A DNA stretch of 64,000 bases, taken from assembly GCF_900098745.1 (NCBI RefSeq), contig NZ_FQTT01000014.1, positions 1 through 64,000 of the forward strand. Reading direction: 5' to 3'. Positions 13,119-25,574 of the stretch are shown here, piece after piece. How positions within the stretch are numbered: the first letter of the stretch is position 1; each line of letters begins with the position of its first letter. The stretch is from Actinomyces glycerinitolerans. Lineage in GTDB: Bacteria > Actinomycetota > Actinomycetes > Actinomycetales > Actinomycetaceae. The notes under the pieces were generated by a model. The model made no database searches. It saw nothing but the letters and a program-made list of their open reading frames with translations, and had not been told where the DNA came from. Made by a program: the position numbers and the translations under genes.

Positions 13119-13709
13119 ATGGATATGGAGCAGGCGGGCAGTTCCCGAGCCGGGGGGAGCCCTACTTTCAATGTGCTGTGGCCGGGCGGCGAGACCGCCG
13201 CTGCGAGTGTGCGCACCACCGTGCTGGAGGCGGCGGCGCTGCTGCGCCGCCTGGGCGTTGACGTGCGCATGCGCATGCCGCGGCCGGGCACGCCGCAAGC
13301 GGAGGCGGGCCACCGCTGGGCCGATACGGTGCTGCTCGTCGACGACGCCCACGACCCGGCGGCCCTGCTGGCGCGGCTTGACGCCGTGGCGGCTGCGGCC
13401 GAGCACGTCTTCGTGTACGTGACGGGGCGTGGCCGAACACCGGCCGGCCCGTTGCCGGCGTCGTCGGCGCAGGTAGTGGTGCTGAACTCCCCGGATGAGG
13501 CCGCGCTGGCCGCGGCGTGGCTGCCGCTGGCCGAGCGGGGCGCCTCGGCCGAGGCGACGGAATCGGCCGCCGCGGGTGGCGTGGAGCGGTCGCGCCGGCT
13601 ATTCCGCCCGATCTCGGCGAGGAGCGGGACGAGTGGCGAGGACGAAGGCCACGACCAACCCGGCGATAACGCCGACGACCACGCCGACGGCCGCGTAACG
13701 CAGCAGTGA
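13119..13709 (+). CDS. Hypothetical protein beside the polysaccharide locus
   Basis: 196 aa if started at MDMEQAG (13119). Codons are strongly GC-ending up to about 13600, as expected of a real gene. The protein opens FNVLWPGGETAA, has helical AALLRRLGVDVRMRM, a strand TVLLVDDAHD, then HVFVYVTGRG and VVVLNSPDEAAL. This alternating pattern recalls a Rossmann-like half of a glycosyltransferase-type fold, but I recognise no family. The last 37 codons overlap, tail to tail, the minus-strand Wzz gene, and that Asp/His-rich end looks non-native. It may be a truncated gene that now reads into its neighbour. The Shine-Dalgarno is weak. Confidence 0.45.
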   Translation: MDMEQAGSSRAGGSPTFNVLWPGGETAAASVRTTVLEAAALLRRLGVDVRMRMPRPGTPQAEAGHRWADTVLLVDDAHDPAALLARLDAVAAAAEHVFVYVTGRGRTPAGPLPASSAQVVVLNSPDEAALAAAWLPLAERGASAEATESAAAGGVERSRRLFRPISARSGTSGEDEGHDQPGDNADDHADGRVTQQ

Positions 13710-14210
13710 GGGCGTCTGCGTGACCGCGCCGACCTGCGCCGAGCTCAGCAGGGCGAGGCTGACCGGGTAGTCGTCACCGGCCAACGCCCCCAGGTCGTCG
13801 GAGGCGTGGGCGACGACGGCGTCCGCAACCGCGATCGCGTCCTCGCGCGAGGGCGCCGACACCTGAATTTCAATGGCGGGGGAGTCCGTTACCCGCGTCG
13901 CGGAGACCCAGGAGGCCACCTCGGTCGGGGACTGGCTCAGGCCCAGCTCGTCGATCACCTCCTGGGCCACCGCCGGGGAGGTGATCACCGGCAGGAAGCC
14001 GTCGGTGGCGGAGTCGGCGACGGTGGAGGCGTAGGAGTAGCCGGTCATCCCCTCCTCCGGGTCCACCTCCACCTGTACATAGGCCATCGAGCCGGCGGTG
14101 TAGGTGGGGTCGGTGGTCGCGGCGACCGCGGCCCCGGCCCCGCCGCCGACGATGCCCAGGACGATGATCCAGACCAGGCCACGGCGCACAAGCGTCATAA
14201 GTTCCTGCAT
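13599..14210 (-). CDS. Wzz-like chain-length determinant (no kinase domain)
   Basis: 203 aa. Two membrane helices (about 10-30 and the last 25 residues before RPAPRRDRAE) flank an outer region of about 130 residues, the layout of polysaccharide co-polymerases. The outer part has PTYTAGSMAYVQV after helix 1, as in Wzz/CapA proteins. It probably sets polymer length for locus A. The ATG at 14210 is preferred over the TTG at 14219 because AAGGA is then about 10 nt upstream. It is the last gene of the minus-strand group after the aminotransferase. No partner tyrosine kinase is encoded in locus A. Confidence 0.75.
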   Translation of the reverse strand: MQELMTLVRRGLVWIIVLGIVGGGAGAAVAATTDPTYTAGSMAYVQVEVDPEEGMTGYSYASTVADSATDGFLPVITSPAVAQEVIDELGLSQSPTEVASWVSATRVTDSPAIEIQVSAPSREDAIAVADAVVAHASDDLGALAGDDYPVSLALLSSAQVGAVTQTPSLLRYAAVGVVVGVIAGLVVAFVLATRPAPRRDRAE

Positions 14211-14255
14211 TGTTTTCAAATCCTTCCCGTTTTCGGCAGGTAGGTCGGGCGGGTG

Positions 14256-15479
14256 TCAGGCGGCGGAGGCAGCGCTGCCCGCGGAGTTGTGAGAGATGTG
14301 CCGCAGCGAGCCGGCCAGCGCCGCGCACACCCGATCCACATCCGCGTCACTGAGTGCGAGGTGCAGCGGCAGGGTCAGCTCCCGGGTGTAGAAGGCGTAG
14401 GCGTGCGGGAAGTCGGCGATGTCGAAGCCGAGATCGCGGTAGGCGGTCAGCAGTGGCAGCGGCTTGTAATGCACGTTCGCCGACACTCCCGCCGCGTACA
14501 GGTCCTGAATGACCCGGTTGCGTTCGGTGACCCCGGGCACCGGCAGCGTGGCGATCGCCAAGTGGCCGGATGAGGCCACGCCGTCGCCGCCGTGCTCCAG
14601 CAGCTGCACGCCGGTGTCGGCCAGGCCCTGCGCGTAGTGGGCCAGTAGCTCGCGGCGCCGCTGCAGGGTCTGCTCATAGCGTCCCAGCTGGGACAGTCCC
14701 AGTGCGGCCAGCGTGTCCGGCAGGTTGCACTTGTAGGCGGGGGCGATCACGTCGTACTCCCAGGAGGCACCGCGGGACTTGGCCAGGGCGTCCTTGGTCT
14801 GCCCGTGCAGCGAGTAGGTGCGCACCCAGCGGGCCAGCTCCTCGCGGTCGGTGGGCAGGTCGGCGCGCCAGGTCAGGGCCCCGCCCTCCGCCGTCGTGAG
14901 GTTCTTTACGGCGTGGAAGGAGAAGGCGGTCAGGTCCGCCAGGGAGCCCGCGGGCGTCCCCTCCAGCGAGGCACCCAGCGAGTGCGCCGAGTCGGAGATG
15001 ATGACCGGCCGTCCCAGGGCGGCCCCCAGTCCGGTGTCGATCCGGCCCCGCCCGGCCAGGAGCGTGGCCAGGGGACGCGAGTCGAAGGGGATGCCGGCCA
15101 GGTCGACGGTGATCACCGCGCGCGTGCGGTCGGTGACCGCGGCGGCGATGCGTTCCACGCTGGGGAAGGGGGAGCCGGGCTCGGAGTCGACCATGACGAT
15201 CCGGGCGCCGACGTGGTCGATCACGGAGGCCGACGCCGTGTACGTGTAGGCCGGCACGACCACCTCGTCGCCCGGGCCGGCGCCCGCGGCGCGCAGCGCC
15301 AATTCCAGGGCGGCGGTGGCGGAGCTGAGCGCGACCGCGCCGGAGGTGCCGGCCCACTGGGCCAGCTGCTCCTCGAAGCGGCGGCCGACGGGCCCGGAGG
15401 TGATCCAGCCCGAGCGCAGCACCTCCACCACCGCGTTGATGTCGTCCTCGGTCAAGGTGGGCGGGGAGAAGGGAATCAT
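14256..15479 (-). CDS. DegT/DnrJ/EryC1/StrS-family sugar aminotransferase
   Basis: 407 aa, normal for the family. PLP enzyme that transaminates a 4-keto nucleotide sugar. The Schiff-base lysine sits in FSFHAVKNLTTAEGG, with the upstream SDSAHSLGAS motif and the early GPVGRRFEEQLA and SSATAALELAL segments. Its start overlaps the stop of the 4,6-dehydratase by 4 bp (ATGA). Together they should convert UDP-GlcNAc to a UDP-4-amino-4,6-dideoxy sugar, as PglF/PglE or WbpM-type pairs do. No N-acetyltransferase follows in locus A, so the amino sugar may stay free or be modified elsewhere. Confidence 0.9.
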   Translation of the reverse strand: MIPFSPPTLTEDDINAVVEVLRSGWITSGPVGRRFEEQLAQWAGTSGAVALSSATAALELALRAAGAGPGDEVVVPAYTYTASASVIDHVGARIVMVDSEPGSPFPSVERIAAAVTDRTRAVITVDLAGIPFDSRPLATLLAGRGRIDTGLGAALGRPVIISDSAHSLGASLEGTPAGSLADLTAFSFHAVKNLTTAEGGALTWRADLPTDREELARWVRTYSLHGQTKDALAKSRGASWEYDVIAPAYKCNLPDTLAALGLSQLGRYEQTLQRRRELLAHYAQGLADTGVQLLEHGGDGVASSGHLAIATLPVPGVTERNRVIQDLYAAGVSANVHYKPLPLLTAYRDLGFDIADFPHAYAFYTRELTLPLHLALSDADVDRVCAALAGSLRHISHNSAGSAASAA

Positions 15480-17389
15480 CGCAGGGCCTCCGCGGAGTCA
15501 GGAACCGGTAGGGCGGTGTCGGTGGGATCGGCGGTGGAGCCGGCGGCGACTCCGGGGGCCGGGCCGGCGGGGACGCCGTCGGGCCGGACCTGCGCGGCCC
15601 CCGCCAGCGGGTCCTCACCCACCGCCCAGGCGTGCAACTCCTCCACCTGCGGCGTCGGCTGCGGCTGTACGCGCACGTGACTCACCAGCGGATGGAAGGG
15701 GCGCTCACCGTGCTCGGAGTGCGCGACCAGGTCCTCCGACAGCTTCTCGCCGGGGCGCAGCCCGGTGTACTCAATCGGGATGTCCTTGCCGGACTGGGCG
15801 ATCAGCCGGCGGGCGACGTCGACGATCTTCACCGGCTCGCCCATGTCCAGCACCATGGTGTCGCCGGGGCGGCCGAAGGAACCGGCCTGGAGCACCAGCT
15901 GGCAGGCCTCGGGGATGGTCATGAAGAAGCGCTCCACGTCCGGGTGAGTGACCGTGACCGGTCCGCCCTCCTCGATCTGCCGCTTGAAGGTCCACAGCAT
16001 GGAGCCGCGTGAGCCCAGCACGTTCCCGAAGCGCACCGAGACGAAGCGCCGACCGCAGTCCAGGGCGGTCGCCGTCGTCATGCGTTCGGCGGCCAGCTTG
16101 GTGCGGCCCAGCACGGAGGTGGGATCGGCCGCCTTGTCGGTGGAGATGTTGACCAGCGTCTGCACCTCGTAGCGTCGGGCCAGCTCGATCACGTTGCGCG
16201 ATCCCAACGCATTGGTCTTCCAACCCTCCTCCGGGTACATCTCCAGCATCGGCAGGTGCTTGAGCGCCGCCGCGTGGAAGACCACCTGCGGGCGGTGCTC
16301 GGCGAAGACCGCCTCCAGGGCCGCCCGGTCGCGGATGTCGCACAGCACCATGTCGCGGGTGTCCAGCAGGCCCTTGCCGTAGATGTCCAGCTGTACGGCG
16401 TGCAGGGCGGACTCGTCCCGGTCCAGCAGCACCAGCTCCTTGGGGCCGAAACGGTGGATCTGCCGGGCGAGCTCGGAGCCGATCGAGCCGCCGGCTCCGG
16501 TGACCAGCACGGTGTGGCCGGAGAGGTAGCCGGCGATCTGGGAGACATCGGTGTGAATCTCACGGCGGCCGAGCACCTCGGCCAGGTCGATCTCACGGAT
16601 ATCGGAGATCTGCAGGGCGCGGTGGGCCAGCTGGCGTACCGGCACGATCGTCATCACTCGAATGCCGTGCTCCGCGCAGCCGGTGGTCACCGTCTTGAGC
16701 CGGTCGGCGGGGAAGTCGGCGACGGCGATCACCACCGTGGAGGCGGACAACTCGGCGCAAACGTCGATCAGATCGTCTACGCCGCCGCGCACGGGCACGC
16801 CCAGGATCCGCAGGTTGCGTTTGGCGGGGTCGTCGTCGACCAGGCCGACCGGGGTGAAGGGGGAGGCGGCGTCGAACTTGGTCAGGTGGATGATCTGCTG
16901 GCCCACCCGGCCGGCGCCGACGACGACGATGCGGTCCTGGCCGCGGGCGACGCGCTGGTAGTACTGGGAGGCCCGGTAGGTGTTTACCAGCCGTGCCGCG
17001 AAGCGGGCCGTGAGCGCGGCCAGGAGCGCCAGTGCGAAGACGGCGGCGAGGGTGAGTGCACGCAGAGGCGTGTCGGTGATCAGCCCCCAGATCGCCGCCA
17101 CCCCGAACATGACCAGGGCGGATACGCCGAACTGGGTGACGACGGCGGTGACCTCGTCGAAGGAACCGGCCGGGTAACGTCGGCGGTAAGTCAGCAGCCA
17201 CAAGTAGCCCAGGCACAGGCTGACGACTGCGGCGACGGCGGCGCAGGCCAGCACGCTCAGGGCGGCGGGGGAGGCGAAGGCGTCCCCGTGCAGCCGGCAG
17301 GGCACGAACGCGGCGAGCAGCCAGAACAGGGTGTCTAGTATGGGCAGGAGCAGTGTTTGTCGATCAGGGGCGGAAGTGCTTGGTCGCAT
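15476..17389 (-). CDS. Membrane UDP-sugar 4,6-dehydratase (CapD/FlaA1/PglF family)
   Basis: 637 aa. About four N-terminal membrane helices (residues 10-110) precede a nucleotide-binding region (RIVVVGAGRVGQQI) and an SDR domain with VTGAGGSIGSELA. The catalytic segment reads NISTDKAADPTSVLG, the CapD-type variant. The Lys in TDKAADP and the downstream RTKLAAE are kept. It probably makes UDP-4-keto-6-deoxy-GlcNAc for the overlapping aminotransferase. A C-terminal tail of about 40 Pro/Ala residues (VAAGSTADPTDT) looks disordered. It is first in its operon and diverges from the flippase gene. No clear Shine-Dalgarno. Confidence 0.9.
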   Translation of the reverse strand: MRPSTSAPDRQTLLLPILDTLFWLLAAFVPCRLHGDAFASPAALSVLACAAVAAVVSLCLGYLWLLTYRRRYPAGSFDEVTAVVTQFGVSALVMFGVAAIWGLITDTPLRALTLAAVFALALLAALTARFAARLVNTYRASQYYQRVARGQDRIVVVGAGRVGQQIIHLTKFDAASPFTPVGLVDDDPAKRNLRILGVPVRGGVDDLIDVCAELSASTVVIAVADFPADRLKTVTTGCAEHGIRVMTIVPVRQLAHRALQISDIREIDLAEVLGRREIHTDVSQIAGYLSGHTVLVTGAGGSIGSELARQIHRFGPKELVLLDRDESALHAVQLDIYGKGLLDTRDMVLCDIRDRAALEAVFAEHRPQVVFHAAALKHLPMLEMYPEEGWKTNALGSRNVIELARRYEVQTLVNISTDKAADPTSVLGRTKLAAERMTTATALDCGRRFVSVRFGNVLGSRGSMLWTFKRQIEEGGPVTVTHPDVERFFMTIPEACQLVLQAGSFGRPGDTMVLDMGEPVKIVDVARRLIAQSGKDIPIEYTGLRPGEKLSEDLVAHSEHGERPFHPLVSHVRVQPQPTPQVEELHAWAVGEDPLAGAAQVRPDGVPAGPAPGVAAGSTADPTDTALPVPDSAEALR

Positions 17390-17671
17390 GAATGGTCACG
17401 TACCTCTCGGCTGGAGACCGACCCAGGGATCAGGGCGGCACCCTCGCGACCACGGCAACGTCGAACGCGCACAGAAGAGTGGTTTCGGCACCGGCGCAAC
17501 GTCAGGGAAGCGGAACGAGGGACCATTACATTTAAAGCGCAAACGCGATTCTGGTCAAATACCAATCGTTTGACGGACACGGTGTGCGCGGGTCAGCATT
17601 GGCAGGTCATCACAGGCCTGTGCCCTGAACCCGTCTGCGCCCTGCAGCGATGACATGTGAGGAGAATCCCT
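17390..17671. promoter_or_regulatory. Divergent promoter region of polysaccharide locus A
   Basis: This 280-bp gap separates the leftward dehydratase operon from the rightward flippase. Its middle (17520-17580) is distinctly AT-rich compared with the surroundings, as expected of promoters. I could not assign specific boxes. Confidence 0.45.
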
Positions 17672-19102
17672 GTGTCCACCGCATCCCCCTCCAGCCGCAG
17701 CCTGACCCGGGGCCTGCCCTGGGTTCTGGTCGGCAACGTCCTGTACATGGCTTCGGCGGCCCTGCTCACGCTGGTGCTGCCGCGCATCATCTCCGTGGCC
17801 GACTACGGGCTGTGGCAGCTGTACCAGCTGTACGTCATGTACTTCGGGTATGTGACCTTCGGCTACACCGATGGCGTGTACCTGCGGCTGGGCGGCCGCC
17901 GCTGGGCGGACATGCCCGGGCCACGCCTGTCCGCCGGCCTGATCCGCCTGTTCGCCCTCGACCTGCTGGCCTGCATCGGCCTGGTGGCGTGGGTGTGGGC
18001 GGCCGCCCCACCGCAGCAGCGGGGCCTGATCCTGGTGCTGGCCGGGCTGGGCGCCCTGTTCTACGTGCCGCGCACCCTGGTCACCGTGGTGCTGCAGATC
18101 GCCGGCCGGGCACGTGCCTTCGCCCTGGGCACGGTGGTGGAGCGGATGGTGACCTTCGTCGGCGTCGGTGGGGCCCTGCTGTTCGGGGTACGCGCGGTGA
18201 TCGTGTTTATTGTCTTCGACGTGCTGGGCAAGGCCCTGGGCCTGGTGATCGCGGTGCTCATCGCCCGCGGGGTATTCCTTGCTCGCCCCGACTTGAGCTG
18301 GCAGGCCACGCGGGAGTTCTTCGTCGACTGCGGAGCGGGCATGTTCGTGCTGGTGTCCAACCTGGCCGCCGCCCTGATCACCTTCGTTGTGCGCTGGGCG
18401 GTGGAGGACCACTGGGGTATCGAGATGTTCGCGCAGGTGTCCCTGGCATTCCAGTTCACCACCATGTTCATGGTGCTGGTCAACTCGGTGTCCATCTCCG
18501 TGTACCCGCAGCTGAGCAACCTGGACCGCGCCCACTACGCCGACGCCTATGCCACCCTGCGCTCGCGGTTCGTCACGCCGCTGGTGCTCATGCTCGGCCT
18601 GTACTTCCCGCTGGCCTGGGTGCTGGGCCTGTGGCTGCCCAACTACGGGCAGGCGATCTTCTTCCTGGCGCTGCTGTTCCCCCTGAGCGTGTACGAGACC
18701 AAGAGCAGGGGCCTGTCGGTGGTGTTCCTGAAGGTGATGCGCCGGGAGCGCCTGATGGCGGTCATAAACCTGGCCTGCCTGGGACTGGCCGTGGTGGGCA
18801 CGTGGTGGACCGTCTACCTGTGGGGTTCGGTGACTGCGGCCGTGTTCCTGATTGCGATGGTCTCGGCGGTGCGCTCGATCGCTTCGGAGGTGTTGATCAA
18901 CCGGCTCATTGGCGTGCCGATTCTGGCCGATACCCTCACCGAGCTACTGGTGTGTGCCGTGTTCCTGGGAGTGGTCGCCGCGGGCGGGCCGCCGCTGGGG
19001 CTACTGGCCGTCTACGCCACACTGGTCCTGTACGGCTATGTTCACCGCGATGCGCTGCCGGGTTTGGGGGGCCGGCGCCGCGGTCGGCGCGCAGTCGACT
19101 AG
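17672..19102 (+). CDS. Polysaccharide flippase (Wzx-like, MOP superfamily)
   Basis: About 476 aa with 12-14 hydrophobic helices. It starts RGLPWVLVGNVLYMASAALLTLVLPRIISVADYGLWQL, which matches the helix 1-2 layout of oligosaccharide flippases (split here only by description). The start taken is the GTG at 17672, because GAGGAG lies 7 nt before it; a GTG at 17657 would overlap that site. It would move the lipid-linked repeat unit of locus A across the membrane. It is the only rightward gene of the locus and is followed by a kilobase of repeat-rich non-coding DNA. Confidence 0.85.
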   Translation: MSTASPSSRSLTRGLPWVLVGNVLYMASAALLTLVLPRIISVADYGLWQLYQLYVMYFGYVTFGYTDGVYLRLGGRRWADMPGPRLSAGLIRLFALDLLACIGLVAWVWAAAPPQQRGLILVLAGLGALFYVPRTLVTVVLQIAGRARAFALGTVVERMVTFVGVGGALLFGVRAVIVFIVFDVLGKALGLVIAVLIARGVFLARPDLSWQATREFFVDCGAGMFVLVSNLAAALITFVVRWAVEDHWGIEMFAQVSLAFQFTTMFMVLVNSVSISVYPQLSNLDRAHYADAYATLRSRFVTPLVLMLGLYFPLAWVLGLWLPNYGQAIFFLALLFPLSVYETKSRGLSVVFLKVMRRERLMAVINLACLGLAVVGTWWTVYLWGSVTAAVFLIAMVSAVRSIASEVLINRLIGVPILADTLTELLVCAVFLGVVAAGGPPLGLLAVYATLVLYGYVHRDALPGLGGRRRGRRAVD

Positions 19103-19121
19103 CCCGCGTGATGCTGCCGCT

Positions 19122-19191
19122 GACGGTTCGCCGGGTACAACGACGGTTCGTGTCTTCCGGTGGACGCTTCGCTACTTCTTGCGACGGTTCG
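19122..19191. repeat. GACGGTTCG/GACGCTTCG repeat cluster, copy 1
   Basis: GACGGTTCG occurs at 19122, 19142 and 19183 and GACGCTTCG at 19163. The string TTCCGGTGGACGCTTCG is shared in reverse complement with the cluster at 38868-39024. Confidence 0.75.
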
Positions 19192-19317
19192 GCGCATGTA
19201 CCCCGCTGTGTTGTCTCCTAACTTCTGGGACGGTTGAGTCTCAAGGGGTCTGGGGCTTTGACCCCGTGGTGGGTGGTGGGTGTTGCCGGCCTGGTGGGTT
19301 GGGTGCTGGTGGGTGGT

Positions 19318-19492
19318 GCGCGCCTCGGGCGCCCCGCTGTGGGGCAGAATGTCCGAATTCGGCACGAAGGCTGCCGGCGATCGCTATGGTCGTTTCTGAA
19401 ACCGCATGATTCCAACGTTCTGGCCACGGCCGCCGGCGACGTCGGAGTCGTTTATGCCGATCCTGGACACTTTGGGCTGCCGAGCACGGGAA
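19318..19492 (+). repeat. Dispersed intergenic element of about 175 bp, copy 1
   Basis: Matches the reverse complement of 54574-54752 over its length. Near-identical blocks include CGCATGATTCCAACGTTCT, CCACGGCCGCCGGCGACG and ATGCCGATCCTGGACACTTT. It lies 3' of the flippase in locus A. In one frame both copies read MIPTF-PRPPAT-ES-MPILDTLG, but most differences change residues and copy 1 has a stop just upstream. Confidence 0.85.
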
Positions 19493-19879
19493 CGAGCACC
19501 AGCGGCGAGCAACCTTGGGCGGACAGGCCCCCTACCCCCGCACCCCCGACCTCGCCCCGGAATGCAACATCACACCCCCCGGGGAGCTGGTTTGGGGGCT
19601 CTTCCGGTTTGAGGGTGTGGTGCGGGGAGGTCGTACTCGACCCGCCGGGGTCGCGTTCGGGCTGAAGAGGACGTACTCGCCCGGCGAAGACGGGTCGTTC
19701 TGGGGCTTGTGAGGTCGTTGTCAGTGTTGCGCGTTGTTGTTTGCCCGGGCGGGCGGGTCGGTGGGGTCCCATCGAGGACGTGGGTTAGCCCGCGAGGACA
19801 TGGCCCGGAAGCGACAATGACCCGGCCGGCCTGACAACGACCCCACACACCCGAACCACCACACCCTCAAACCGAAGAA

Positions 19880-19966
19880 CCGGTTTGGGCCCGCCCGGGA
19901 CTCTCCAAGGCGTTGCCGTACTCGACGGCAACCAACACAGCCGGTTTGGGCCCGCCCGGGACTCTC
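19880..19966. repeat. 26-bp direct repeat pair
   Basis: CCGGTTTGGGCCCGCCCGGG plus ACTCTC occurs exactly at 19880-19905 and 19941-19966. Each unit contains a GGGCCC..CCCGGG near-palindrome. Confidence 0.85.
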
Positions 19967-20144
19967 GGCTCTGCGCTCGGGGCGCCGGCCGACGGCGGTA
20001 AGGCCAGCCGGGCCCGGCGCCTGTGCCTGTCCCGGGCTCCTACTTGGACCGCGATTCTGTGGTTGACCGCCTGGGGTGCGTCTGAGGCGGTCCAAGGGCA
20101 GCCCGGTGGTCCGGGTGCAGCCCGGCGGGATTGGGACCCGCCAT

Positions 20145-20207
20145 CTCTACCAACCTCGGCCACGTAACTTCTACCGACCTCGGTGCGTAACTTCTACCGA
20201 CCTCGGG
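20145..20207. repeat. 23-bp-period tandem repeat TTCTACCGACCTCGGT, copy 1
   Basis: Three units: a diverged one at 20146, then 20169-20184 and 20192-20207, separated by GCGTAAC-type spacers. Related sequence appears in two other gaps (56692-56740 and 59403-59437). The outer unit supplies the last codons and stop of the Wzy gene. Confidence 0.85.
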
Positions 20208-21766
20208 GTATTGCCGGCTTCGCGCAGCAGGGCGGCGGCCAGGGACAGCACGGTCACGCCGAGCAGCGCCACTAGCACGCTGGGCGTCAGCCAGGTGCTC
20301 AGGAAGCCGGTGGCACTGCCGCGCGGCGCCCACAGCAGCGTCGGCACGATCACCAGGCGCAGGCCGTTGCGCAGCGGCTGCCCCTTGATCAGGGTGCAGG
20401 CCCAGATGCACACGGCGCCGTACACGGCTCCGCCCACCAGCACGCCTGCGTAGCCGTAGTCGTAGAAGAGCTCCGCGATGAAGGACGATCCCGTGCCGCG
20501 GCCGCTGAGGTACTGCGGCCCCAGCAGCGTGTAGGCGAAGGCGTGGGTGAAGGAGCCGCCGTGCAGGGCGTGCGCGACGGTGTTGCCGTGGTAGACCTGG
20601 GCGTCGAGCAGGCGGGCGGGCAGCCCGGAGTGCAGGAACTCACCGGTGTACCAGTCCTGGGGAATGAAGTCGGCGTAGGTGTAGGCGTTGCGCACCACAG
20701 TCGAGCTCACGCCCTGGCCGTACAACAGCTGCAGGATCGGGTTGCGGCCGGCGGTGTCCGAGGCGACCGCACCGACGCCGCGCGCCGACTCCACCGCGGC
20801 CAAGGCGACCGCGACCAGCGGCACCATGACGACGCCGACGATCCGGCCCGTCCTCCCGATGCGCCAGGTGCCGGGCGGGTCCTGGCGGGCACGCACGATC
20901 CAGTAGGCGAGGATGATGACCAGGCCGCCCACGAAGGTGCCGCGCTGCCCGGTCAGCAGACTCAGTGCCAGGTAAACGGCCCAGCCGACGCTGGCGGCCG
21001 TGACCTGGCGGCGCGGCGGGAACAGGCCCAGATAGATCGTCAGCACCAGCGGCAGCATGATCTCGATGCGGCGCAGCCCGTACATGGACCCGGAGGCGTC
21101 CTCCAGATCGGAGAAATCCGTGTAATAGGACAGGTAGCCGTTGGCCAGCACGTAGCGGGCCCGCAGCGCCACCGATATCAGTGACAGGACGAGCGTGGCC
21201 CAGTACAGGAAGCGCACGATCGACGGGTCCGCCAGCACGGTCGCGCCCTCGGGAACGCCAATGCGGGCGGAGCCGAAGCGCCCGCGGCTGGAGCCGGCGG
21301 AACCAGCGCCGCCCACCGCCCGCAGGCGCGACTTCCCTGTGCGCCAGGCACTCACGGCCAGCGCCCCGGCCAGAATGCCGATCAGGCTCAGCGCCAGGCA
21401 CAGCTGCAGGTGCTCAGTCTGCCCCGGCGGCGCCTGGCTGGTCTCATAGTGGAAGAAGTCCACCGTGATTTCGCGCCCCAGCAGCAGCAGGAAGAAGGAC
21501 ACCAGGAAGGCCGCCAGGATGGTGCGCTCGGCCATGCGGGCGGCGGCGAACAGCAGCGCGTTCAGCCACAGCAGCAGAATCAGGACCCAGGGAAGCGACG
21601 CCTGGGTGGCCAGAGCCAGGGCGACCGCCGCCAGGTTGCACAGGGCGGCGACCAGCGCCAGCCCGGGGCGGCGCGAGACAGCGCGCTCGACCCGACGGCG
21701 TTGGTTCGGCTCGCCGTTCACCGCGTCGCCGGCTGATGACTGCTGTCCCGGAGCCTGTCCGCTCAT
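20171..21766 (-). CDS. O-antigen/oligosaccharide repeat-unit polymerase (Wzy-like)
   Basis: 531 aa with about 11-12 membrane helices. A hydrophilic loop carries LYGQGVSSTVVRNAYTYAD and a long outer loop near residues 380-440 (GNTVAHALHGGSF, LGPQYLSGRG), as in oligosaccharide repeat polymerases. It probably polymerises the locus A repeat unit outside the membrane. Its ATG overlaps the stop of the upstream GT4 gene by 4 bp. The C-terminus AGNTPRSVEVTHRGR is encoded by the 23-bp intergenic repeat, which also supplies the TAG. The original end has therefore been replaced or extended by repeat DNA. Confidence 0.82.
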   Translation of the reverse strand: MSGQAPGQQSSAGDAVNGEPNQRRRVERAVSRRPGLALVAALCNLAAVALALATQASLPWVLILLLWLNALLFAAARMAERTILAAFLVSFFLLLLGREITVDFFHYETSQAPPGQTEHLQLCLALSLIGILAGALAVSAWRTGKSRLRAVGGAGSAGSSRGRFGSARIGVPEGATVLADPSIVRFLYWATLVLSLISVALRARYVLANGYLSYYTDFSDLEDASGSMYGLRRIEIMLPLVLTIYLGLFPPRRQVTAASVGWAVYLALSLLTGQRGTFVGGLVIILAYWIVRARQDPPGTWRIGRTGRIVGVVMVPLVAVALAAVESARGVGAVASDTAGRNPILQLLYGQGVSSTVVRNAYTYADFIPQDWYTGEFLHSGLPARLLDAQVYHGNTVAHALHGGSFTHAFAYTLLGPQYLSGRGTGSSFIAELFYDYGYAGVLVGGAVYGAVCIWACTLIKGQPLRNGLRLVIVPTLLWAPRGSATGFLSTWLTPSVLVALLGVTVLSLAAALLREAGNTPRSVEVTHRGR

Positions 21767-23046
21767 GCTCGTCCCTCCTGCGCGGCGGCGCGGGATTCCG
21801 CCCCCTCCAGCAGGCCGGACAGCTCCGCGGCGAAGCGGGTGTACAGGGCGCGCGCGTCGCAGCGCTCCTCCCAGGTGCGCCGGGCGCCGGCGCGCAGGTC
21901 GGCATAGGCATCCTCATCCAGGCCCGCGATCTGCTCAATGGCGCCCCGCACTTGCGCCGGCGTCGGATCGGCGGGCAACAGAACCCCGTTGACGCCGGTG
22001 CGCACCAGCTCGCCGGTGCCGCCCACATCCGTGGCCACCACCGGGATGCCCGCCGACAGCGCCTCCATGATCGACACGGGCACGCCCTCGGAGGCGGAGA
22101 CGTTGACCAGCAGGTGGCGGGGGGAGTGCACGTACTCCTCCACCAGGTCGGCGTTGCGCACGAAGCCCCGCCAGGTGAGGCTCACGTTGGCGGGCAGCTC
22201 GGCGTCGGCCTGCGCCTGCAGCTGCTCACGCAGCTCCCCCTCACCGAAGTGGTCCCACTGGACCGGCAGTTCGGTTCCGGCCAGCGCCTCGACCAGCAGG
22301 TCCAGGCGCTTGATGGGGACGATGGTCGAGCAGGATACGATCCGCAGCCCCTCCCGGCGGGGCGGCACCGCGGCGGGGACACCGTGATCGGTGGTGCCCA
22401 GGCGGGCGACGACGGCCTTGTCCGCCGCCTCCGGCTGCCGGTCCAGCAGGTAGCGCAGTCCGTGGTCCGCCACCAGGTAGATGCGGTCCAGGTCGGCCAC
22501 CGTCTGTGCTCGCAGCGGCAGGTAGCCGCGGGGGGAGTACTCCTCGTACAGGTCCGCGCGGTGGGCTCGCGCCACCGAGGCCGTGCGGCGGAAGCGGCGG
22601 CGCAGTCGAGCAGCCATATGGGGCTGATAGGCGAAGCGGTAGGAGTAGAAGACCACCTCGTCGTCCGGGCCCGCCCCGGCCTCCCGGAGAAACCGGGCGA
22701 CCTGGGCGGACTCGTGACGGGCGCGGCTGAGGAACACGAACAGGGTGACCACGCGGGAGGGGCTGAGCCGGCGGCGGCGGGCCAGGTCGGCCAGCTCGCG
22801 GTACAGGTTGGCGTCGCCCAGCACCGGGAAGGAACCGAGCAGGTAGAACAGGCGGGAGCGGAACGGGATCGCATGCGCGCGCATGCCCGCCGGCAGCGGG
22901 CGCACGTTGGCGCGCTGGTCCTCCCGTACCGACAGAGACATGATGTCCACCTGGTCGAAACCGGTCAGGTACTCCAGCTCGGTCGCCAGGAACGGCTCCC
23001 AGTTGCCCCAGGGGAAGGCGTTCGCCAGGATGACAAGTCGTTTCAT
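21763..23046 (-). CDS. Glycosyltransferase family 4 (GT-B fold)
   Basis: 427 aa from MKRLVILANAFPWG. The ATG at 23046 is chosen because CAGGAGG precedes it and it overlaps the stop of the ATP-grasp gene (ATGA). The C-terminal donor-binding half has VSCSTIVPIKRLDLLV, HFGEGELRE and the EX7E motif in SEGVPVSIMEALSAG, followed by VVATDVGGTGE. It should transfer a sugar from a nucleotide donor to the lipid-linked intermediate of locus A. It is the only plain glycosyltransferase in locus A, which is few for a repeat unit. Confidence 0.88.
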   Translation of the reverse strand: MKRLVILANAFPWGNWEPFLATELEYLTGFDQVDIMSLSVREDQRANVRPLPAGMRAHAIPFRSRLFYLLGSFPVLGDANLYRELADLARRRRLSPSRVVTLFVFLSRARHESAQVARFLREAGAGPDDEVVFYSYRFAYQPHMAARLRRRFRRTASVARAHRADLYEEYSPRGYLPLRAQTVADLDRIYLVADHGLRYLLDRQPEAADKAVVARLGTTDHGVPAAVPPRREGLRIVSCSTIVPIKRLDLLVEALAGTELPVQWDHFGEGELREQLQAQADAELPANVSLTWRGFVRNADLVEEYVHSPRHLLVNVSASEGVPVSIMEALSAGIPVVATDVGGTGELVRTGVNGVLLPADPTPAQVRGAIEQIAGLDEDAYADLRAGARRTWEERCDARALYTRFAAELSGLLEGAESRAAAQEGRA

Positions 23047-25574
23047 GCCGCCTCCTGCAGTCGGAAGGTCACCTGGGCGGCCAGGGCGGCGGCCCGCTGC
23101 CGACACTGCTCCAGGTCTTGCCCGCGCACCACCACCTGTCCCAGACAGTCATTGGAGGAGGCGAAGCCGTCGATGCGGTCGCCCGGGCCGCGGAACAGGC
23201 TCAGGTCCACCGCCCAGTCGGGCAGGTCCCGGGGCACCAGCACGTCGGCGATGGTGCCGTGGGCGTCAGGGTCCGTGAGCATCAGTGCCAGGGCGGCGCC
23301 CGGCCCGGGTTCGCGCCGCGCCCAGGTGCCGGGCACGTCCAGGTCCAGCGCCTCCCGGGCCACCAGCTCGTAGTAGTCCAGGCCGTGCACGGCACCCATC
23401 AACTCGGGCAGTCCGTTGGCCCCGGCGCGGCCGGTCAGCTCGATCACGTACACCTGGCCGTCGCAGGCCATCAGGTCGATGTTGACGGCGCAGTCGTCCA
23501 GACCCAGCGCCGCCACCGCCGCGGCCGTGACCTCGCGAGCCTGGGCGGCCAGGTCGGCGTCGTCGAGGGGCACGTGGTGGCCGATGGGGATCGGCAGGCC
23601 GGCGGCCAGGTCGTCGCCGTGGACGGTGACGTGTATCAGCTCGCCGTCGTGCGCCAGCGCCTGCGCGCCGAACTCGCGGCCGTCCAGGAAGCGTTCGACG
23701 ATCACCGTGCCGTGGCGGCTGAGGGCGTGGGCGCGATCGAAGGCGGCGCGGGCCTGGTCGGATGAGGCCACCTTGAACACGCCGGAGGAGCCCTGCAGGT
23801 CGGCGGCCTTGACCATGGCCGGCAGACCGACGGCGGCCAGGGCGGCGTCCAGTTCATCGCGGCTGGTGACCTCCCGGAATGGGGCGGTTGATACGCCGCG
23901 CTCGACCAGGCGGCGCTTCATGGCCAGCTTGTCCATGCACAGCCGTGCGGCGGCGCGGCCGATACCGCGCAGCCCCAGCTCGTCGACCACCGCGCCCAGC
24001 GCCTCCAGGCCCGTGTCCAGGCAGCTGGTGGCGACGGCGTCGACACCGGCCAGACGGGCCTCCCGGGCCACCGCGGCCGGGTCGAGCAGGTCCACGTCGA
24101 TGGCCTCATCGGCCTCCTTGAGTCCCGGCGGCGGACCGGCGGTGAGGCTGGCGACTACCGCGGTGGCTCCCAGGCGCTTGACGGCGCGGATAAGCCCCAA
24201 CTGGCCGCGGCCGGCGCCGATGATCAGCACGCGGCGGCCCCGCGCGGGCAGGTCGGCCGGCGTCGAGGAGGCGGGGCCGGGGGAGGCCGCCGTCGGCGTG
24301 GCGGCGGGGGAGGGGAGCTGCGCGTCGACCTCGATGCGGATCAGGTCGCGGGCCCGCTCGCAGGCGGCGACGGCGGTGACGCGGTCGGGGGCGGAGGCAA
24401 CCACCACGCCCAGGCGATCCGTGCTGGAGTGCAGCGGGGCGATGGCCTCGCCGGGCTGCGCCAGGGTGATGACGGCGTCGACGCCGGGTACAGCGCGCGC
24501 CTCCTCCACCCCGTGGAAGGCGCGCAGCACGCCCTCGGGGGCGGTCAGGAAGCGAATGGCGGCGGCCCGTCCGGAGGAGGCCGGCATCTCGATCTTCTCC
24601 CCGCAGGCCTGCCGCAGCACCAGCCCGATGAAGTCGATGCCGGTGGAGCCGGGCACCACATGGGAGGAGACGAAGTCGCCGGCCATGCGGCAGCCGAACT
24701 CAATGAGCACGGGTCCGTTGTCCGTCAGCATCATCTCCACGTGGGCTGGGCCGAAGTGCATGTCCACGGCGGCCAGGCACTGGGCCACCAGGGCGTGGGC
24801 GGCGGCCAGGGTGTCGGCGTCCAGGTCGGCGGGCTGGGTGTGGCCGGTCTCAATGAAGTGGGGGCTGCCGGTGGTGTCCTTGTCCGTGGTGGCGACCACG
24901 TGGTACGTACCGTCCACGCACAGCACCTCGCAGCTGATCTCCCGCCCCACCAGCAGCTCCTCCACGATCACGGTCGGTTCGTAGGAGGGAGCCAGGGCAT
25001 AGTCCAGTGCCCGGGCCAGGTCTGCCTCGCTGTCCACCTGCACCACCCCGCGGGACCCGGAGGAGTCCAACGGCTTGACGATGCAGGGCAGGCCCACCTG
25101 GGCGACGGCGGCGCGCAGCTCGTCCAGGTCGGTGGCCAGGGCGAAGCGCGGGTGGGGTACGCCCGCGCGGGCGACGGCCTGAAGCATCAGCGCCTTGTCG
25201 GTACACGCCGCGGCCGTGTCCGGCGAGACGGCGGGCAGACCGTGAGCCTGGGCGACGGCCGCCATGGCCCGCACCGGCCGGTCCGTGCCCACAGAGGTGA
25301 CCCCCGCCAGCTCGCGGTCGCGAGTCAGGGCCAGCAGCCCCTCCACGTCGGTGGTGGACACGGCGGCGAACTCGTCCGCCAGCGCGGCGCCGGGAACGTT
25401 GGGGTTGGCGTCCACGACCAGCGTGCGCAGCCCCAGGTCGCGGGCCCTGCGGATCATCGGCACCTGGAGCGGAGAACCTCCCAGGATCAGCACCGGTGGG
25501 CGTTCGGCGGCGGGGCGCGTCGACTGGTCGGCGTCCGCGTGGGGCTGGATGGCGGGGGTTTCAGGGACGGTCAT
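23043..25574 (-). CDS. Fused double ATP-grasp ligase in polysaccharide locus A
   Basis: 843 aa made of two similar halves joined by a Pro/Ala/Ser linker near 420-440. Each half has an N-terminal Rossmann-like region (PPVLILGGSPLQ; RRVLIIGAGRGQLGL), an ATP-grasp core with its lysine (CIVKPLDSSGSRG; AMVKAADLQGSSG), a hinge (VEELLVGREIS; VERFLDGREFG) and a metal-binding end (VLIEFGCRMAGD; VIELTGRAGANG). Such enzymes form amide or thioester bonds from a carboxylate via acyl phosphate. The layout recalls carbamoyl-phosphate synthase and carboxylate-amine ligases. Between a sugar transferase and a glycosyltransferase, amino-acid or peptide decoration of the glycan or its precursor is the likeliest role. 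The ATG has AAGGAG upstream. Confidence 0.88.
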   Translation of the reverse strand: MTVPETPAIQPHADADQSTRPAAERPPVLILGGSPLQVPMIRRARDLGLRTLVVDANPNVPGAALADEFAAVSTTDVEGLLALTRDRELAGVTSVGTDRPVRAMAAVAQAHGLPAVSPDTAAACTDKALMLQAVARAGVPHPRFALATDLDELRAAVAQVGLPCIVKPLDSSGSRGVVQVDSEADLARALDYALAPSYEPTVIVEELLVGREISCEVLCVDGTYHVVATTDKDTTGSPHFIETGHTQPADLDADTLAAAHALVAQCLAAVDMHFGPAHVEMMLTDNGPVLIEFGCRMAGDFVSSHVVPGSTGIDFIGLVLRQACGEKIEMPASSGRAAAIRFLTAPEGVLRAFHGVEEARAVPGVDAVITLAQPGEAIAPLHSSTDRLGVVVASAPDRVTAVAACERARDLIRIEVDAQLPSPAATPTAASPGPASSTPADLPARGRRVLIIGAGRGQLGLIRAVKRLGATAVVASLTAGPPPGLKEADEAIDVDLLDPAAVAREARLAGVDAVATSCLDTGLEALGAVVDELGLRGIGRAAARLCMDKLAMKRRLVERGVSTAPFREVTSRDELDAALAAVGLPAMVKAADLQGSSGVFKVASSDQARAAFDRAHALSRHGTVIVERFLDGREFGAQALAHDGELIHVTVHGDDLAAGLPIPIGHHVPLDDADLAAQAREVTAAAVAALGLDDCAVNIDLMACDGQVYVIELTGRAGANGLPELMGAVHGLDYYELVAREALDLDVPGTWARREPGPGAALALMLTDPDAHGTIADVLVPRDLPDWAVDLSLFRGPGDRIDGFASSNDCLGQVVVRGQDLEQCRQRAAALAAQVTFRLQEAA

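Follow-up and report, generated by a model that had tools for sequence, protein, structure and literature searches.

The window considered here is a stretch of 64,000 nucleotides from Actinomyces glycerinitolerans (RefSeq assembly GCF_900098745.1, contig NZ_FQTT01000014.1, positions 1 to 64,000), a rumen Actinomyces, and it contains a polysaccharide locus with a gene for a fused double ATP-grasp ligase of 843 amino acids (23043–25574, minus strand). On the minus strand the genes follow each other in the order phosphoglycosyl transferase (PGT), ligase, glycosyltransferase (GT) and Wzy and then, past a gap and a membrane-like protein on the plus strand, dehydratase, aminotransferase and a Wzz-like protein. 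The ligase starts 33 bp past the end of the PGT gene, which bears out an earlier note on this DNA that had placed an initiating sugar transferase before it, and overlaps the GT gene by 4 bp (ATGA). The latter, also claimed in that note, depends on the ATG at 23046 being the start codon of the GT; a GTG start that lengthens the gene is possible as well. The ligase gene is backed by the open reading frame (ORF) call, Pfam, an AlphaFold2 model and structure comparison, and no internal stop was found within the ORF. Since the protein is conserved in other genomes of the genus (83–91% identical in three other Actinomyces genomes, and 57–65% as two adjacent genes in four more), the ORF is not there by chance.

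Pfam, the aligned residues and the AlphaFold2 model agree in placing two complete units of the ATP-grasp superfamily in this one protein, as had been claimed before. Unit 1 (G1; residues 1–418, 24321–25574, minus strand) is an ATP-grasp of the L-amino acid ligase (LAL) type and unit 2 (G2; residues 441–843 plus the stop codon, 23043–24254, minus strand) is a relative of PDB entry 4dim, while the linker between them (residues 419–440, 24255–24320, minus strand) is rich in Ala, Pro, Ser and Thr and disordered in the model. Ten Pfam families match the protein; LAL_C2 (114.7 bits, cut-off 29.4), ATP-grasp_4 and others each do so in two places. Scored per unit in the genome search, LAL_C2 reaches 82.4 bits for unit 1 and 45.1 bits for unit 2 (same cut-off), i.e. 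both units classify as LAL by this family. The residues with assigned roles in ATP-grasp enzymes are two nucleotide-binding lysines, acidic metal ligands and an arginine. When unit 1 is aligned to 3vot and unit 2 to 4dim, the nucleotide- and metal-site residues are kept in both (K127, K167, E205, E212, E280, E292 and R296 in unit 1; K549, K589, E627, D700, E712 and R716 in unit 2). The AlphaFold2 model, made from an alignment (A5) of 19 chosen rows, has a mean pLDDT of 84.4, with 737 of the 843 residues at 70 or higher and residues 419–440 below 50. It predicts two folded units with the catalytic residues in place, and its pTM of 0.53 makes their placement relative to each other unreliable.

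The first gene of the cassette encodes a short monotopic PGT (PF02397; 25608–26258, minus strand), and the GT4-type GT that follows the ligase (21763–23046, minus strand) is its conserved partner. Next come the Wzy polymerase (PF14296; 20171–21766, minus strand) and, in divergent orientation, the membrane-like protein (17657–19102, plus strand). The locus had been described as of the Wzx/Wzy kind, of which the Wzy part stands. The possible Wzx flippase is a membrane protein as judged by eye, for which no Pfam or NCBIfam match was found and for which an AlphaFold2 model from three rows (mean pLDDT 37.9) was unusable. The labels previously given to the GT, the dehydratase and the aminotransferase hold. 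The dehydratase (15476–17389, minus strand) is a PglF-type UDP-GlcNAc 4,6-dehydratase, closest to C. jejuni WlaL (PglF), and the row ends with a DegT-family C4-aminotransferase (14256–15479, minus strand) and the Wzz-like chain-length protein (13599–14219, minus strand). Among solved structures the aminotransferase is closest to Spr1654 of S. pneumoniae (6ewj, E 1.5e-122; the runner-up has 1.4e-55), and with a PglF-type dehydratase and a PGT in the same locus it is of the Spr1654/WcfR type, as judged from the comparison with Spr1654. Spr1654 has been proposed to make UDP-AATGal, although proof that it accepts the expected substrate is still awaited (PMC5936713). Given an Spr1654-like aminotransferase and a PglF-like dehydratase, the locus is expected to make a 2-acetamido-4-amino-2,4,6-trideoxyhexose, probably in its galacto form (AATGal, made as UDP-AATGal).

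Two further features of the locus were observed. Between the membrane-like protein and wzy lies about 1 kb (19103–20260) without a convincing gene and with short repeats, namely 26 nt twice (19880 and 19941) and 21 nt three times (20139–20206, one copy at 76%), in addition to a perfect 18-nt inverted pair at 19605/19857. The gene just upstream of the PGT is proC-like in the window, and polysaccharide deacetylase-like in two loci with split ligase genes, L024 (8059–8922) and L025 (11522–12406).

The two units have different nearest relatives. The best PDB sequence match of unit 1 is the L-amino acid ligase BL00235 (3vot, E 2.4e-24), and in structure comparison PurT (Z 32.6) and 3vot (Z 32.1) tie; unit 2 fits 4dim best (E 1.1e-82, Z 33.4, 35% identity). 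In a tree of 31 chosen rows a single branch (support 100/99) parts all 10 unit 1 from all 10 unit 2 sequences, and the units are, as judged from this split, separate families. The tree carries a long-branch warning and the G1/G2 split alone is used from it. From this split it follows that the pair predates the fusion and is common to several phyla, either by descent or by transfer. Membership of two other families was considered and rejected: the CPSaseII_lrg model for the carbamoyl phosphate synthetase (CPSase) large subunit scores 66.4 bits against a cut-off of 1027, with no oligomerisation or MGS domain among the ten Pfam families, and the PurT equivalog model scores 116.7 bits against 502.15, where the fold by itself cannot separate PurT from LAL. 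Entry 4dim was deposited as a phosphoribosylglycinamide synthetase and belongs to the unit 2 family of glycan cassettes; it is perhaps misnamed.

Within the genus, a search with the whole protein found the ligase in 8 of 37 Actinomyces genomes (own genome included), four times fused and four times as two adjacent genes; the nearest named genome is that of Actinomyces succiniciruminis (98% in unit 2), followed by A. ruminis and A. ruminicola. The cognate PGT (at least 72% identity; next best 47%) and the cognate aminotransferase (at least 63%) occur in the same 12 of 49 genomes, and in all 12 of these unit 1 and unit 2 lie between the PGT and the GT, seven times fused and five times split. For the 12 genomes by which the 49 exceed the 37, the ligases were sought by reading the locus, in the four of them that have the cognate PGT and in G1207, which has a sister cassette. 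An ATGA stop/start overlap couples the split units in all four of the five split cases that were checked (L024, L025, L026 and L027), as it does in the split outgroup pair of a Propionibacteriaceae genome (L036). Because coupled pairs are found up to and including the Propionibacteriaceae, the coupled pair is the older arrangement, from which the fusion is derived. By this comparison the fusion is a local, derived state and of little weight in itself, 5 of the 12 genomes having two genes. In one of the seven fused cases (L119, genome G1211) there are frame breaks in the PGT and unit 1 genes of a single-contig genome, either through sequencing error or through decay.

Beyond the genus, close homologues of the ligase adjoin PGT and C4-aminotransferase genes in polysaccharide loci of three phyla. 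A Propionibacteriaceae metagenome-assembled genome (MAG) has the order PGT-G1-G2-GT followed at some distance by the aminotransferase, and a plasmid record of Parabacteroides distasonis has GT2-Wzy-flippase-GT-G1-PGT-G2-aminotransferase, with identities to the window of 41% (GT), 35% (G1), 45% (PGT), 41% (G2) and 48% (aminotransferase). The incomplete gene table of this plasmid stretch lists no dehydratase, and a PglF-type gene is present on a contig of another strain. In a Paludibacteraceae MAG, unit 1 is followed about 9 kb further on by aminotransferase-PGT-G2-hexapeptide transferase-GT-PglF. The hexapeptide transferase of this locus (L038) was considered as a substitute for unit 1 and dismissed when unit 1 was found on the same contig by the genome search; its better NCBIfam matches are phosphonate-associated and Vat/CatB O-acetyltransferase models, all below cut-off. 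Finally, a capsule locus on an Enterococcus hirae plasmid (L125) has PglF-aminotransferase-epimerase-PGT-G1-GT-GT-polymerase, with identities to P. distasonis of 56% (G1), 64% (aminotransferase) and 56% (PGT), and no unit 2 was found at E 1e-30 on the plasmid, the chromosome not being searched. This capsule locus (LCP, Wzz, CpsD, CpsB, polymerase, flippase) with its unit 1 ligase sits on a 44-kb plasmid near LPXTG and pilin genes. In all cassettes read (Actinomyces, Propionibacteriaceae, P. distasonis, Paludibacteraceae) unit 2 is accompanied by unit 1. Relatives of unit 1 occur in five further Bacteroidia genomes, with a DegT-like gene in all four loci read (two of them confirmed by Pfam), and distant unit-1-like ligases occur in pseB-pseC loci of Aureibacter and Solidesulfovibrio, that of Aureibacter being about equally near to unit 2. 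Six stretches of viral contigs matched unit 1, none of them a relative.

The G1/G2 pair is rare. At the strict cut-off, with at most six candidates scored per genome in these group searches, the search for unit 2 gave hits in 1 of 295 Bacteroidia genomes (that of the seed), in 2 of 291 Clostridia (seed included) and in 2 of 297 genomes of the order of the window (the window genome itself and another Actinomyces), and a unit 2 profile at 1e-40 retrieved 3 of 296 genomes of the phylum, i.e. that of the window and two weak ones nearer to unit 1. Altogether 36 loci were examined (33 from a scan of named genomes and three from the phylum search), and of the 33, seven have a PGT beside unit 2 or the pair, 25 are in Clostridia and lack it in the stretch covered, and one is a match of only 50 residues. 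In one Clostridia locus (L055) two YfhO proteins and a GT2 adjoin the unit-2-like ATP-grasp according to Pfam, and the wider unit 2 family is therefore not restricted to the amino-sugar cassette. The Lachnospiraceae loci L041, L048, L049, L055 and L059 each have one to three unit-2-like ATP-grasps, in an unfamiliar, glycan-like type of locus. Another pair of ATP-grasps was seen in L084, where a Clostridia relative of unit 2 is followed by a different ATP-grasp (PF14397, associated with sugar transfer).

What constantly accompanies the pair is a set of enzymes that install an amine at C4 of a UDP-sugar, together with a PGT that is expected to use this sugar first. ATP-grasp ligases form an acyl phosphate and then pass the acyl group to an amine. 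We tentatively propose, at somewhat less than an even chance, that the ligase N-acylates, in two steps, the sugar with which a Wzy-type surface polysaccharide begins; unit 1 would act at the 4-amine of this sugar and unit 2 would then build on the result, both before the PGT acts. The PglF-type dehydratase and the Spr1654-type aminotransferase would convert UDP-GlcNAc to UDP-2-acetamido-4-amino-2,4,6-trideoxyhexose (probably UDP-AATGal), after which unit 1 would activate a small carboxylic acid (amino or hydroxy) with ATP to an acyl phosphate and join it to the sugar 4-amine. Unit 2 would couple another acid to what unit 1 has made, the free amine of that product being the simplest point of attachment, so that a side chain like a dipeptide results. 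The PGT would then transfer the decorated sugar phosphate to undecaprenyl phosphate, and the next sugar would be added by the coupled GT. The sugar, the acceptor amine, the order of the units, the acids and the timing relative to the PGT are all steps that we infer. That the 4-amino sugar is the acceptor, as the earlier note had suggested, is the best inference from the PGT and C4-aminotransferase neighbours in three phyla and from the type of the aminotransferase. The interpretation in that note, a sugar or lipid intermediate bearing a peptide or amino acid, is thus borne out in part; the acids may or may not be amino acids, and PglB2, the nearest precedent, adds a glyceramide. N-acylation of the 4-amine is assigned to unit 1 because unit 1 occurs with amino-sugar enzymes and a PGT where unit 2 was not found (i.e. 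on the E. hirae plasmid). This plasmid points to a unit 1 that can act alone and to unit 2 as an extra step, and an extending role is assigned to unit 2, which was always found together with unit 1 in the cassettes read.

Several points weigh against this proposal. The 12 out of 12 linkage within the genus reflects one inherited block and not 12 independent events, and the case of unit 1 without unit 2 comes from one plasmid whose chromosome was outside the search. The predicted fold of unit 1 resembles PurT, which joins formate to an amine, as closely as it resembles an L-amino acid ligase, and no gene for the supply of the acids was recognised in the window cassette. Furthermore, 25 of the 33 unit 2 loci from named genomes are more distant Clostridia homologues without a PGT or close aminotransferase, on stretches that are partly short. 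The earlier note had also argued from the lack of an N-acetyltransferase to cap the amine; in fact, PglD_N has no match in the whole genome of the window, whereas 8 of 14 control genomes match, but the missing PglD-type acetyltransferase proves little. A sister aminotransferase (50–54%) occurs in eight other Actinomyces genomes, and the four loci read are PglF-aminotransferase-PGT cassettes in which neither a ligase nor an acetyltransferase was found. In the Pfam scan of these four cassettes (18 plus-strand ORFs, i.e. one PGT and 17 downstream, two of them without a match, and with upstream genes left out) no acetyltransferase or ATP-grasp match was obtained among the 17 ORFs downstream of the PGT. 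As these sister cassettes have neither, an uncapped amine is apparently normal in the genus. Two of the sister AATGal-type cassettes contain a source of negative charge, a pyruvyl transferase in L121 and a UDP-sugar dehydrogenase in L122, and may specify zwitterionic polysaccharides.

The ligase could be read in other ways. The two units may acylate different amines, unit 1 that of the first sugar and unit 2, for example, one on a sugar added by the GT, so that no dipeptide is formed. This would agree with the E. hirae plasmid, on which neither unit 2 nor the cassette GT was found (its two GTs give no match at 1e-5), and with P. distasonis and Actinomyces, which have both; the Paludibacteraceae locus, however, has unit 2 without a match to the cassette GT at 1e-6 in the stretch read, and the genes called in the window cassette include no second aminotransferase, which makes separate amines unlikely. 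Less probable still is that the carboxylate comes from the sugar, with the ligase attaching amino acids to a uronic acid in amide linkage. Amides of this kind are known in glycans, such as A. baumannii K17 (from a title cited in PMC9676051), and unit 1 of the Paludibacteraceae has, by eye, a nucleotide-sugar dehydrogenase-like neighbour, while such an enzyme is annotated in the E. hirae stretch. On the other hand, none was seen in the window cassette or is listed in the incomplete gene table of P. distasonis, and the constant companion is a C4-aminotransferase.

The mechanism itself may differ from two ligations. A Foldseek comparison over both units ranks CPSase large subunits 2nd to 13th, which might point to a single ligation by way of two phosphorylations, and the tie of unit 1 with PurT would allow a one-carbon transfer (formyl or carbamoyl on the 4-amine). 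With an identity to CPSase of 12–14%, the CPSase domains mentioned above missing, the PurT score below cut-off and unit 1 standing alone on the E. hirae plasmid, which does not fit two phosphorylations, we regard this as improbable, about as much so as the amidation of a uronic acid. The similarity of unit 1 to BL00235, a dipeptide ligase, could also mean that the product is a free dipeptide or another small molecule, unattached to the glycan. As the genes keep company with the PGT, the aminotransferase and glycosyltransferases even where other phyla have them in a different order, such a free product seems highly improbable.

If two-step N-acylation of the first sugar is correct, it could be part of something wider, namely a portable module found across phyla that assembles a peptide non-ribosomally on a 4-amino sugar still bound to its nucleotide. 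In this speculative extension, which we consider rather unlikely as it stands, unit 1 would add the first residue and unit 2 the second. Each polysaccharide repeat would then start with a dipeptidyl amino sugar, and loci with unit 1 only would carry a single residue. In that case, reading an AATGal aminotransferase as the sign of a zwitterionic capsule with a free amine would be mistaken for any genome that has the ligases. Two-step N-acylation would in itself extend the single ATP-grasp route known from PglB2 to a two-unit enzyme that spans Actinomycetota and Bacteroidota and has a single-unit counterpart in Bacillota. The presence or absence of unit 1 and unit 2 offers a testable genomic sign by which free-amine (zwitterionic, immune-modulating) and masked AATGal polysaccharides could be told apart, and a role as glycan ligases is suggested for relatives of unit 2 that, like 4dim, carry the name of a purine enzyme. 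A literature search, with most subscription papers outside its reach, did not find a double ATP-grasp in such a locus described.

Known systems resemble the window ligase in part. The L-amino acid ligases BL00235 (3vot), RizA (4wd3) and BacD (3vmm) share the overall ATP-grasp fold with its units at 19–23% identity, but are single units that produce free dipeptides. Likewise, 4dim (Anaerococcus prevotii) is of the same family as unit 2 but a single unit, with a function given only by the depositors' name. The CPSase large subunit has two ATP-grasp units per chain, as the ligase does, and performs two phosphorylations of one small substrate; it has further domains, where the ligase has a disordered linker of about 22 residues. 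The Spr1654/WcfR AATGal pathways (pneumococcal teichoic acid, B. fragilis PSA) have a dehydratase and C4-aminotransferase as in the window, and the pneumococcal repeat begins with AATGal (PMC5936713). This sugar has been described as the positive charge of such capsules in a paper whose main text does not mention ATP-grasp (PMC10167101). Derivatives of QuiNAc4N in A. baumannii (qhbAB, qhbCB) are a case of a 4-amino-trideoxyhexose with alternative N-acyl groups in capsules, the qhb genes serving acetyl or hydroxybutanoyl groups, again with ATP-grasp unmentioned in the main text (PMC9676051). PglB2 of Neisseria combines one ATP-grasp with the PGT, whereas the window protein combines two ATP-grasps and leaves the PGT to a separate gene 33 bp away, i.e. 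the one-chain PGT/ATP-grasp arrangement is not found in the window. The acyl group of the PglB2 product sits on the sugar 4-amine, and the neighbouring neisserial genes encode the dehydratase and the C4-aminotransferase. The context is the same in the window, where an ATP-grasp and a short PGT are encoded with a dehydratase and a C4-aminotransferase. PglB2, a PGT/ATP-grasp protein, is responsible for glyceramido-acetamido trideoxyhexose (GATDH; PMC11130364). Like the window locus it ties an ATP-grasp to a short PGT and a 4-amino-trideoxyhexose, a likeness drawn from description and not from sequence. By this analogy, PglB2 may be taken as a working precedent for the N-acylation of a sugar by an ATP-grasp enzyme.

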